Assembly (NCBI RefSeq): GCF_900258045.1
Contig: NZ_OGVD01000004.1
Span: 372,001-436,000, forward strand
Direction: 5' to 3'
Length of the DNA stretch: 64,000 bases
Source of the DNA: Sphingorhabdus sp. EL138
Lineage (GTDB): Bacteria; Pseudomonadota; Alphaproteobacteria; Sphingomonadales; Sphingomonadaceae
Within the stretch, counting starts at the first letter, position 1; every line of letters starts with the position of its first letter. A program made the translations under genes and the position numbers. Of this stretch, positions 798 through 58,095 are shown one piece after another. Under the pieces are notes generated by a model that was given only the letters and a program-made list of their open reading frames with translations, searched no databases and had not been told where the DNA came from.

Positions 798-1526
798 ATG
801 GCTGAAGAAACAAAGAACGAAGGCTCAGAAGCGCCGGAATCAGCTGCACCAGCTGAGGCTGCTCCTGCCGAGCAAAAACAAGAGCGTCAAGGTCGCGGTG
901 GAAACCGTGGCGGACGTGACGGTGGACGCGGCGGCCGTGATGGCGGACGCGGTCGTGGCCGTGGTCGTGGTGGCCGGGATCAGGATCAGGGCGAAGAGTT
1001 GATCGAGAAACTGGTTCACATCAACCGTGTTTCCAAAACTGTTAAAGGCGGTAAGCGCTTTGGTTTTGCTGCCCTGGTTGTGGTTGGCGACGGCAAAGGC
1101 CGTGCCGGTTTTGGTAAAGGTAAAGCACGCGAAGTGCCTGAAGCGATTACCAAAGCAACAGCTGCTGCGAAAAAGAAAATGGTTCGCGTTCCATTGCGGG
1201 AAGGTCGTACGCTTCACCATGACGGCAAAGGCCAGTTTGGTGCAGGCAACGTGACCTTGCGTTCGGCGCCTCCAGGTACCGGTATCATTGCCGGTGGGCC
1301 TATGCGTGCGGTTTTCGAAAGTCTTGGTGTGGCCGACGTGGTGACCAAGTCTAACGGAACATCCAACCCTTATAACATGATCCGGGCAACCTTCGTGGCG
1401 CTTGGTGAACAGACCAGCCCCAAGGCTGTATCCCAGCGGCGCGGCAAGAAAGTTGCCGATCTGCTTGGCCGCGGCGGCGCTTCTGAAGCTGAGGCTGAGG
1501 CCGAAGCTGCAGCAGTTACGGAGTAA
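798..1526 (+). CDS. rpsE: 30S ribosomal protein S5 with RGG-rich N-terminal extension
   Basis: S5 is a small-subunit protein needed for decoding accuracy. The family core starts near residue 66 ([19 protein letters not shown]) and runs through the KVPLREGRT-like and [10 protein letters not shown] segments. The protein is 242 residues against about 167 in E. coli. The excess is an N-terminal stretch: an acidic Ala/Glu part (residues 1-32), then a Gly/Arg block of [10 protein letters not shown] and RGRGRG units (about 33-61). There is also an Ala/Glu-rich C-terminal tail. The ATG at 798, two bases after the rplR stop, fits tight operon spacing, and no alternative start lies just before the core. 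The extension is real coding sequence in frame; its role is unknown. Confidence 0.96.
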
Positions 1527-1532
1527 GGCATA

Positions 1533-1712
1533 ATGGCTAAAGTGAAAATCAAGCAGATTGGTTCGCCAATCCGTCGCCCGGAAGAACAGCGCAAGACGTT
1601 GATCGGCCTGGGCCTCAATAAAATGCACCGTGTTTCCGAATTGGAAGACACCCCGGAAGTGCGCGGCATGATCCGTAAGGTGCACCATCTTGTAGAGGTT
1701 GTTGAAGGGTAA
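1533..1712 (+). CDS. rpmD: 50S ribosomal protein L30
   Basis: This short gene encodes a 59-residue L30. The translation begins [19 protein letters not shown] and contains the family pattern [25 protein letters not shown] followed by a short C-terminal strand ([10 protein letters not shown]). L30 is a peripheral large-subunit protein. It sits six bases after rpsE and before rplO, the standard spc order, and the start codon is preceded by a GGAGTAAGG-like ribosome binding site that overlaps the end of rpsE. Confidence 0.95.
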
Positions 1713-55616: not shown

Positions 55617-56354
55617 TTACCTACTCGCCTCGGCTTTCCTGTCCAGCAGCCGTGTTCGTTCTCTTTTCAGTGCTTCTAGGTTTGCAAAATCTGGTTCAGT
55701 AATCTTGGTCGTCTCAAATAGCATGATCGAACTGTCAACACTGGCGAGCGCGGTGTCATAATCATCCCGCTTTTTGGCGATAGACGACTGGATCAGATTG
55801 GCAAGAAACAGGAGCATGTCCTGCATTGGATATTCCCTTTTTCCAGCAAGCGCTTCTATCTTTTTCGCAGATTGTATTGCGTCATCATATTCCGCTTCCA
55901 GACTAGCCTGATATTCCTTGGAGCCGCGATATTCTGGTTTCTCCCGCATCAAAGCGCGTCGAGATCGTCGGTGATCACGGGCAATTTCCTTCGCTTCTCT
56001 ATAGGTCTGAAAACCTTCAAGTAACGGCCAGCAATTATAGAGCGCAATCATCATCGCTTCACCTTCGGTCGCCTCGCAGCTTCGCAGGTCATCCCGATGC
56101 TTTGCTTCTATGACTATGGTTTTGGGGTCCGTGCTCATAATGCGCCTCAGAACACTGACATCTCGTTTCTCTGGTGCGGTTACTTGCTCAGTTTGATCTG
56201 TTTCCGAGCCAGATACTTGTGAAGGGAGTTGAGAAGATGGCGGCATATTAGGAAAAGAGGAAGTCTCCGGTTCGGCCTCCCGTGCGGACACTTGGGCAGG
56301 AAGAATGGAGGCAGCAAATAGTGCCCAGGTAAGGCGGATTGAGATTTTTTTCAT
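55617..56354 (-). CDS. Hypothetical exported protein
   Basis: I do not recognise the family. From the ATG at 56354 (GAGGG upstream) the protein is 245 residues with a signal peptide (MKKISIRLTWALFAASILPAQVSA). A Ser/Pro/Gln-rich segment follows, then a helical, charged domain (about 80-245) with a cysteine pair (LRSCEATEGEAMMIALYNCWPLLEG). Many Arg/Lys and Asp/Glu residues suggest coiled-coil helices. Its stop abuts the queA stop. Confidence 0.6.
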   Translation of the reverse strand: MKKISIRLTWALFAASILPAQVSAREAEPETSSFPNMPPSSQLPSQVSGSETDQTEQVTAPEKRDVSVLRRIMSTDPKTIVIEAKHRDDLRSCEATEGEAMMIALYNCWPLLEGFQTYREAKEIARDHRRSRRALMREKPEYRGSKEYQASLEAEYDDAIQSAKKIEALAGKREYPMQDMLLFLANLIQSSIAKKRDDYDTALASVDSSIMLFETTKITEPDFANLEALKRERTRLLDRKAEASR

Positions 56355-56407: not shown

Positions 56408-56443
56408 GAAAGAAAAAGGGCGGCCCCAAAGGAACCGCCCTTT
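56408..56443 (-). terminator. Rho-independent terminator of the DUF2282 gene
   Basis: Two 9-base arms (56415-56423 AAAGGGCGG and 56435-56443 CCGCCCTTT) are perfectly complementary, and on the minus strand the stem is followed by TTCTTTC. It lies 22 bases after the end of the DUF2282-like gene. Confidence 0.75.
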
Positions 56444-56465
56444 CAAAATCTGATATGCTAAAAGC

Positions 56466-56813
56466 TTAACCCTCAGCAGCTACCGGCACTGGCGGATCAT
56501 TGTCGGCCACTTCGGTCAGCGAACCGCCTTGGGGCTCACATTCGCCTGCTTCTGTATATTTCCAGGCATTGCCCTGATAATCAACAACCGATGTACCGGC
56601 ACAGCTTGTACCTTCGCCAGCGGCACAATCATTTTCGCCGGCTTTGGCGATACCGAAACATTTTTCTTTTTCAGCGGCCGCAACTTCGGTGACTTCTTCA
56701 CCTGCTGCTTCGGCGCCTTCTGTTGCTTCGCCGGCACCGCCGGAACAGGCGGAAAGAGCTGCAGCTGCGATCAGCGCAGTTGCCGCTGAACCTAATTTCT
56801 TTGTCTTCGTCAT
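56466..56813 (-). CDS. DUF2282-like (BufA1/bufferin-precursor-type) lipoprotein
   Basis: The 115-residue protein has a lipobox (AAALSAC, Cys23), an acidic Ala/Glu linker (25-50) and then a cysteine-bearing domain: [25 protein letters not shown] followed by [19 protein letters not shown], with Cys52, Cys63, Cys71 and Cys92. This matches DUF2282, the precursor family of bufferins, copper-binding peptides modified by BufB/BufC enzymes. Unlike usual precursors it has a lipobox, and no DUF692 or DUF2063 gene is adjacent. GGGAG precedes the ATG. It is divergent from tgt and followed by a terminator, so it is a single-gene unit. Confidence 0.72.
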
Positions 56814-56967
56814 AAAATACTCCCGATTTTGGTCTTTGAAAAACTGCTACCATCCTGCACAGTTATTGAGGGATTCGTACAGAACGGCCCTTTGGTTACA
56901 CCATAAGGCAAAAAACGCAAAATTCTTTGTTTTTTCGAACCTTAGTTCGCTGATTAGGATGATTTTA

Positions 56968-58095
56968 ATGGCCGACCGTTTTTCTTTTTCGATCGACGCC
57001 ACGGATGGAAAGGCGCGTACCGGAAAAATTACGATGCAACGCGGAGATATCCGCACACCGGCGTTTATGCCGGTCGGTACGGCGGCCACGGTCAAGGCTA
57101 TGAAACCCGATACGGTTCGTGCCACCGGCGCGGATATCATCTTGGGAAACACCTATCATCTGATGTTGCGACCGGGTGCAGAGAGAGTGGCAAAGCTCGG
57201 TGGTCTGCATAAATTTATGAATTGGGAACGGCCCATTCTGACCGACAGTGGCGGCTATCAGGTGATGAGTCTCTCTGATCTTACGAAGATGAGCGAAGAT
57301 GGCGTGGAGTTCCAGAGTCATCTGGATGGATCCCGCCATATGCTTACACCGGAGCGGTCGATGGAGATTCAGCGGCTGCTTGGCAGCGACATCGTCATGG
57401 CGTTTGACGAATGCACCAAAAATGGCGCGACCCGAGAGGAAGCCATGTTGTCTATGGAGCGTTCCATGCGCTGGGCCAAACGATCCCGCAATGGCTTTGA
57501 CAGCGGCCAGGATCATGCAGCAAAGGCAGCGCTTTTCGGAATCCAGCAAGGATCTCTCGACAAGGATATCCGTGCGGCTTCAGCCCAGGCCCTCATCGAG
57601 ATCGGCTTCGATGGCTATGCCATTGGCGGACTGGCCGTAGGAGAGGGGCAGGAGGCGATGTTCGATGTTCTCGATTACGCGCCGGGCCAACTACCCGAAG
57701 ATAAACCGCGCTACCTTATGGGTGTCGGCAAACCGGATGATCTCGTCGGCGCAGTGGAGCGCGGAGTGGATATGTTCGATTGTGTGCTGCCCAGCCGGTC
57801 TGGCCGCAACGGGCAGGCGTTCACGGCCAGCGGGCCGATCAATATTCGCAACGCAAAATTTGCCGAGGATCTGAAACCATTGGATACAGACTGCACCTGC
57901 TCGGTTTGCCAGACTTACAGCCGCGCCTATCTACATCACTTGATCCGGTCCAAGGAGATATTGGGCGCCATGCTGATGACCGAGCATAATATTGCTTTTT
58001 ACCAGTCGCTTATGGCCGGAATGCGAGAGGCTATTGCAGGTGGCGCTTTTGCGGCCTTTGCCAGCAACTTCCGGGGGAAATATCTTCGGCAATGA
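56968..58095 (+). CDS. tgt: Queuine tRNA-ribosyltransferase
   Basis: Tgt exchanges guanine 34 for preQ1 in tRNA. The ATG at 56968 (AGGA eight bases upstream) gives 375 residues, the normal length; the open frame extends much further upstream through non-homologous sequence. The motifs include [51 protein letters not shown] (catalytic Asp), [30 protein letters not shown] (second Asp) and the zinc site [17 protein letters not shown]. Its stop overlaps the glnE start (ATGA). Confidence 0.96.

Follow-up and report, generated by a model that had tools for sequence, protein, structure and literature searches.

The window analysed here, a stretch of 64,000 nucleotides from Sphingorhabdus sp. EL138, carries a small stand-alone gene for a predicted lipoprotein of the bufferin type. 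The features of the locus, with the basis on which each was assigned, are as follows (positions are those of the window):

56414 to 56444, minus strand: intrinsic terminator hairpin (RNA folding)
56466 to 56813, minus strand: gene for a predicted lipoprotein Buf1 (DUF2282) precursor, 115 aa, stop codon included in the coordinates (open reading frame, PF10048, genus orthologues)
56520 to 56669, minus strand: DUF2282 (Buf1 bufferin) domain, residues 49-98, Cys 52/63/71/92 (Pfam, alignment, pN/pS)
56661 to 56744, minus strand: acidic (Glu/Asp-rich) linker, residues 24-51 (sequence)
56745 to 56813, minus strand: lipoprotein signal peptide with lipobox LSA/C, residues 1-23 (pattern read by eye, genus-wide)
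56820 to 56843, minus strand: conserved leader, likely ribosome binding site, TTTTCAAAGACC..AAATCGGGAG (genus alignment)
56850 to 56862, minus strand: conserved 5'-UTR block, CTGTGCAGGATGG (genus alignment)
56874 to 56899, minus strand: sigma-F (ECF) promoter match GTAACC-N16-CGAA, exact, 60 bp before the ATG
56968 to 58095, plus strand: divergent neighbour, putatively tgt, a synteny anchor outside the system (tblastn in genus and family loci)

It is certain that the open reading frame, which starts with ATG, encodes a member of DUF2282 that has four cysteines and the pattern of a lipobox. The preliminary description had called it a DUF2282/bufferin-like precursor, and the Pfam profile search places it inside DUF2282 (PF10048, residues 49-98) with 74 bits against a cut-off of 22.4 (E 9.4e-21). 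On inspection, the N-terminus reads as an export signal, with charged residues, a hydrophobic stretch and then the lipobox L20-S21-A22-C23, in which C23 is the putative lipidation site and Ser occupies position +2; both the lipobox and the acidic linker are present in the sequence as had been described. By pattern, the lipobox (LSAC at 20-23) is kept in the 30 copies of the genus, and a lipobox in an MNIO-type precursor is one of the traits of DAG-RiPPs. C52, C63, C71 and C92 are invariant across an alignment of 56 sequences, the window protein among them, as are the residues flanking the central cysteines in both lipoprotein and operon forms. Within the genus, pN/pS of the DUF2282 domain is 0.14 against 0.17 for the operon bufA (22 of 30 lipoprotein genes and 20 of 27 operon genes, each from a separate genome). 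Membership of BufA2 was rejected, as the NCBIfam BufA2 equivalog NF050166 gives 19.5 bits where 60 are required; the host's own operon BufA, at 28.7 bits, is also under this cut-off. No relative of known structure was found by sequence at E up to 1, and an AlphaFold2 model of the protein was too poor for use (mean pLDDT 59, pTM 0.41). Downstream lies a gene for a secreted-looking hypothetical protein (55617-56354, minus strand) that matches neither a Pfam family above its cut-off nor an NCBIfam family and that was not found in 12 tgt loci of 11 other genomes, the closest relatives lying outside those 11.

The gene ends, as had been proposed, in a terminator of its own, the hairpin reaching -26 kcal/mol in a 66-nt piece (z -3.62, 0 of 200 shuffles as good). 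The span originally assigned, 56408-56813, holds for the gene plus this terminator and leaves out the promoter at 56874-56899. Each column of the block CTGTGCAGGATGG is kept in 29 or 30 of the 30 genus genomes, and its only exact copy in the host genome is the one in this 5'-UTR. A structured RNA leader was considered and rejected, since the five Rfam matches were each below gathering score and each overlapped the terminator. The consensus fold of 25 distinct 5'-UTR sequences (-1.4 against a column-shuffle mean of -0.9, sd 1.1) gave nothing beyond shuffles, and the frame of an upstream ATG in the 5'-UTR is not kept among the genus sequences.

The promoter match would connect the gene to a known stress response. 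The Caulobacter buf operon has a GTAACC-N16-CGAA promoter that is used by sigma-F, which responds to chromium and cadmium (PMC3511200). Copper induces this regulon, and loss of function in sigF makes the cells sensitive to the metal (PMC8224329). In the host genome, which was searched as a whole (3.66 Mb in 4 contigs, listed as 100% complete, the window gene being on contig C1), exact GTAACC-N16-CGAA sites number 20 on both strands, of which one belongs to the window gene and two to the buf operon, one ahead of bufA and the other at the end of bufC ahead of doxX-sigF-nrsF. The latter site (L017, C3:27458-27483, minus strand) is a possible internal promoter of doxX-sigF-nrsF. A spacing of 16 is in excess, because spacers of 14, 15, 17 and 18 give just 4, 8, 8 and 4 exact sites. 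A reversed control pattern outnumbers the true one (415 vs 183 with one mismatch, 102 vs 44 in the spacing run); its base order differs, and the spacing control was therefore relied on instead. Taken from this exact match, control of the lipoprotein gene by sigma-F is very likely.

Other exact sites have downstream genes for two AhpC/TSA proteins, two pyridine-nucleotide disulphide oxidoreductases (one fused to a VTT domain), MsrB (SelR), DUF1223, cytochrome b561, a methyltransferase, DUF2147, a PNPOx protein and a type II secretion F-domain protein, and for two proteins with no Pfam family, in a Pfam search that covered the genes after all exact sites except L019. Twelve of these sites (L005, L009-L013, L015, L016, L020-L022, L024) precede genes that would make the predicted regulon wider than the one reported in Caulobacter. 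The site L006 sits within a long ORF, no ORF of at least 70 aa begins within 200 nt of L014 or L023, and with the choice of a start codon further upstream, a same-strand ORF would also cover L007, L011, L013, L017, L019 and L021.

A search of the genome for BufB and BufC, which had been put forward as a check, found one pair, in a C3 operon with the order bufA, bufB, bufC (DUF2063), doxX, sigF (ECF sigma factor) and nrsF. The BufB (C3:28137-28937), the one MNIO found in the genome, scores 345.6 bits against the 310 cut-off of the NCBIfam bufferin-maturase model; NrsF is recognized by Pfam (147 bits, cut-off 26.8) and does not reach the NCBIfam NrsF equivalog (79.4 of 300). The profile search of the host contigs found no BufB or BufC gene beside the lipoprotein gene, which agrees with the earlier statement that no modifying enzymes are nearby. 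Its description as an orphan thus holds locally and fails genome-wide, strict orphan status being ruled out by the MNIO and DUF2063 genes on C3. Although the window gene is not encoded beside an MNIO and a DUF2063 gene, many precursor genes are reported without a nearby MNIO (PMC12452194), and absent local enzymes therefore do not exclude family membership. DUF2282 genes in the host number three: that of the buf operon, the lipoprotein gene and a third on C4 (C4:22077-22364, in locus L003 at 1405-1692, plus strand), which encodes a Sec-type precursor with a plain signal peptide. The 3.1-kb locus of the C4 gene holds no MNIO, and no sigma-F motif with up to 2 mismatches lies within 160 bp of it; it is another precursor without local enzymes.

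Several features of this gene have counterparts in characterized systems. Buf1 carries its modification on the central cysteines, and its outer pair is joined in a disulphide; for sizeable proportions of the precursor genes no MNIO is encoded close by, and predicted lipoproteins make up about 16% of Buf2 (PMC12452194). With the Buf1 bufferins (DUF2282, PF10048; Caulobacter CC3254) the window protein shares the domain, the four cysteines, the type of sigma-F promoter and an exported precursor, but a lipobox and an acidic tether take the place of the plain Sec peptide, its core is acidic and no enzyme genes adjoin it. It resembles the lipidated Buf2 bufferins in being a predicted lipoprotein of an MNIO-substrate family, whereas Buf2 has 6 or 12 cysteines and the window protein belongs to the four-cysteine Buf1 family and has a stand-alone gene. 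The DAG-RiPPs DybA and NedA share with it a lipoprotein signal on an MNIO-type substrate, and NedA was both modified and triacylated in E. coli (PMC12636315). That study mined MNIO neighbourhoods and names a bufferin subset bearing lipoprotein signals; a stand-alone gene would therefore be outside the search as it is described there. In related EGKCG-repeat thiooxazole peptides, each modified cysteine shows a 4-Da loss (PMC12668002). The Caulobacter sigma-F regulon (PMC3511200, PMC8224329) has in common with the host the GTAACC-N16-CGAA promoter, the buf operon and sigma-F with NrsF; compared with its published account, the predicted host regulon would also include a lipoprotein bufferin encoded on its own and a larger group of redox genes. 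Lipidated bufferins as such have already been predicted in print (PMC12452194, PMC12636315). A search of the literature listings turned up no account of a Buf1 lipoprotein gene that stands alone and is controlled by sigma-F, and what is new here is the exact predicted sigma-F promoter upstream of such a gene.

Within the genus, 31 of 32 genomes have DUF2282, 28 of 32 have MNIO and 30 of 32 have an open lipoprotein copy beside tgt; among named organisms, Parasphingorhabdus flavimaris carries a close relative of the gene (L042, 88% identity), which makes Parasphingorhabdus the probable genus. Of the 30 lipoprotein genes, 22 are preceded by an exact motif, two (G020, G024) by a motif that departs at a single base and two (G010, G021) by one with two mismatches, while four (G005, G017, G018, G029) lack it; of the operon bufA genes, from 27 genomes, 24 have an exact motif and the other 3 a single mismatch. 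In the upstream alignment of the 30 genomes (the G026 row being trimmed 3 bp short of the start codon), identity to the window gene is 93.9% in the -35 element and 97.5% in the -10 element, against 72.5% in the spacer, 65.5% in the 40 bp upstream and 85% in the leader to the ATG. All 28 MNIO-positive genomes have an open lipoprotein gene (the copies of G010 and G021 being cut by contig ends). In five of them the promoter is missing (G005, G018, G029) or has two mismatches (G010, G021), which counts against the main reading given below. In L196 (G010) and L205 (G017) the linker is longer and altered, and the promoter motif degenerate or missing.

The four genus genomes without a detected MNIO fall into two pairs. 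In G013 (82% complete), a bufA remnant leads straight into broken pieces of nrsF, the fetched pieces hold no match to bufB, doxX or a sigma factor, and the tgt-linked lipoprotein gene is broken, with a stop within the cysteine domain and no match for the first 37 residues. In G014 (97% complete), there is no match for DUF2282, MNIO or NrsF, and the queA-tgt gap is about 40 bp with the lipoprotein gene absent, which would represent loss and not original absence because the gene is present in other genera. The gene is open in G017 (87% complete), where the motif is not recognisable and NrsF gave no match, and in G020 (89% complete), where an nrsF piece stops at a contig end, so that the operon may sit in an assembly gap. 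Co-loss of the lipoprotein gene with the MNIO is suggestive, with two cases for it and two unclear, and incomplete assemblies weaken the absences.

The family was surveyed in 298 evenly drawn Sphingomonadaceae genomes, with 128 loci outside the genus read among the matches listed (135 rows, of which 16 were loci without an ORF by the cysteine pattern). DUF2282 is present in 104 of 298 genomes and MNIO in 113. The two occur together in 102 of those 104; G082 and G158, where they do not, gave weak matches and belong to a single genus. Among the matches listed, the pattern marks 28 of the 119 DUF2282 ORFs outside the genus as lipoproteins, of which 8 lie at bufB and 20, from 19 genomes, stand alone; the flanks read were 1.5 kb for 30 loci (L146-L175) and about 3 kb for the others unless the contig ended, and the absence of a nearby bufB therefore holds within that reach. 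All 28 keep the four cysteines, and the cysteine-to-cysteine distance spanning the linker ranges from 18 to 49 in these relatives. Each of the 19 genomes whose lipoprotein gene stands alone encodes an MNIO elsewhere (Fisher p 1.7e-9 relative to the sample, a value that ignores kinship). In 14 of the 19, spanning four further genera, the stand-alone gene is beside tgt, which brings this linkage to five genera in all. None of these 14 genomes has an exact sigma-F motif at the tgt-linked copy, a result that counts against the main reading and for which the motif was rejected as a general marker of such copies. The five genomes with stand-alone copies away from tgt (G068, G072, G150, G151, G209) each have the exact motif. 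Three loci (L254, L301 and L288, from G099, G118 and G231) show signs of a tandem pair of lipoprotein DUF2282 copies beside tgt.

Sec and lipoprotein precursors stand together at one bufB in six genomes (G053, G108, G144, G162, G217, G251), the order in G144 being promoter motif, Sec bufA, lipoprotein bufA and bufB. Among the matches listed, G264 has a single one to DUF2282, a lipoprotein whose stop is 6 bp from the start of bufB. In 80 loci of named organisms retained from the genome collection, a similar pattern marks 25 as lipoproteins, 7 of them with bufB in reach, one being that of Sphingobium cyanobacteriorum.

The descent of the mature domain was followed in a tree from which signal and linker were excluded (119 distinct cores out of 127, including eight chosen by hand from the genus). 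On one side of the main split, 28 of 29 rows are lipoproteins, the 29th being G318, a Sec form by pattern with an atypical lipobox-like TAGC; on the other, 88 of 90 rows are Sec forms. Support for the split is moderate (82/95), with few columns (68) and a midpoint root. Two lipoprotein rows are found among Sec forms, G251 and G053 (which also represents the core of G144), so that lipidation either evolved repeatedly or moved. Support of 99/87 unites the window gene with lipoproteins of G113, G162 and G217 that are linked to bufB. Mean core charge is -4.9 in the lipoproteins (28 ORFs) against +5.9 in the others (91 ORFs).

The reading that we favour, and hold to be somewhat probable, is that the window gene encodes a lipid-anchored Buf1 bufferin, a satellite of the sigma-F copper/thiol-stress regulon that sigma-F would induce together with the buf operon and that BufBC would mature in trans. 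The domain, the lipobox pattern, the cysteines, the promoter match, the operon on C3, the conservation and the absence or breakage of the gene in two genomes without a detected MNIO are read from sequence; control by sigma-F, anchoring by a lipid, maturation in trans, binding of copper and location at a membrane are inferred. Copper or a related stress would cause NrsF to release the ECF sigma-F, which would then transcribe bufA-B-C-doxX-sigF-nrsF on C3 together with the stand-alone lipoprotein gene on C1. As the lipoprotein gene shares its stress promoter with the single bufferin operon, the enzymes of that operon probably finish its peptide: the one cytosolic BufB-BufC pair would convert C63 and C71 to thiooxazoles, C52 and C92 would form a disulphide after export, and C23 would be processed by Lgt, LspA and then Lnt. 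Ser at position +2 of a lipoprotein generally directs it to the outer membrane, and by this rule the mature domain, on its 28-residue acidic tether, would probably sit there as a membrane-fixed copper buffer alongside the soluble Sec-exported BufA. Trans maturation by BufBC and a membrane-anchored copper-buffering role are likely.

Of the two fates originally suggested for the peptide, maturation by enzymes encoded elsewhere and persistence as an unmodified metal-binding lipoprotein, the former is favoured, since a BufB/BufC pair exists, both loci have an exact sigma-F site, the near relatives are precursors of bufABC loci, and the gene is broken or absent in two genus genomes without a detected MNIO (two others of this kind retain an intact gene). 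The latter, in which the DUF2282 domain leaves the cytosol before BufBC acts, its four thiols either binding copper or pairing up as two disulphides, and in which sigma-F control is genuine, is the main rival and seems rather unlikely. Both signal peptide and linker speak for it, the one unlike that of the cognate operon BufA and the other additional, so that recognition in trans is not assured, the signal peptide being, on preliminary evidence, part of BufBC recognition (PMC12452194); the same source allows that unassociated precursors stay unmodified, and G017 and G020 keep the gene open with no MNIO detected. It fits less well with the absence or breakage of the gene in G014 and G013, in neither of which an MNIO was detected, with near relatives encoded together with bufB, or with the invariant surroundings of the central cysteines in lipoprotein and operon forms alike.

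Were the protein a lipid-anchored bufferin for another metal or oxidant (gold, silver, hypochlorite), or a sensor rather than a buffer, the several predicted sigma-F sites ahead of thiol and peroxide genes and the chromium and cadmium response of sigma-F (PMC3511200) would be readily accommodated; we nevertheless regard this as improbable, given that the Caulobacter regulon is copper-induced and its sigF mutant copper sensitive (PMC8224329). A leftover precursor of a former buf operon, drifting without function, would explain a stand-alone gene with degenerate promoters in some genus members, but the domain is under constraint as strong as that of the operon bufA by pN/pS (22 and 20 genomes), the promoter leaves a footprint in the genus alignment and the tgt linkage extends over five genera, which makes a relic highly improbable.

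PMC12452194 leaves open whether one MNIO-partner pair serves several precursors, or whether the unassociated ones are unmodified with another purpose. With one BufB, three DUF2282 precursors and a lipoprotein promoter like that of the operon, Sphingorhabdus sp. EL138 is a clean test of this question. In a wider view, which we consider evenly balanced, one BufBC pair would serve two compartments, with a soluble periplasmic and a lipid-anchored bufferin, the anchored form being an old, separately evolving Sphingomonadaceae Buf1 lineage that is linked to tgt in five genera, lies in bufABC loci elsewhere and may be lost with the maturation enzymes. Such a membrane-fixed copper buffer would be invisible to neighbourhood-based RiPP mining, and stand-alone lipoprotein precursors are thus a suggested blind spot of MNIO-centred genome mining.
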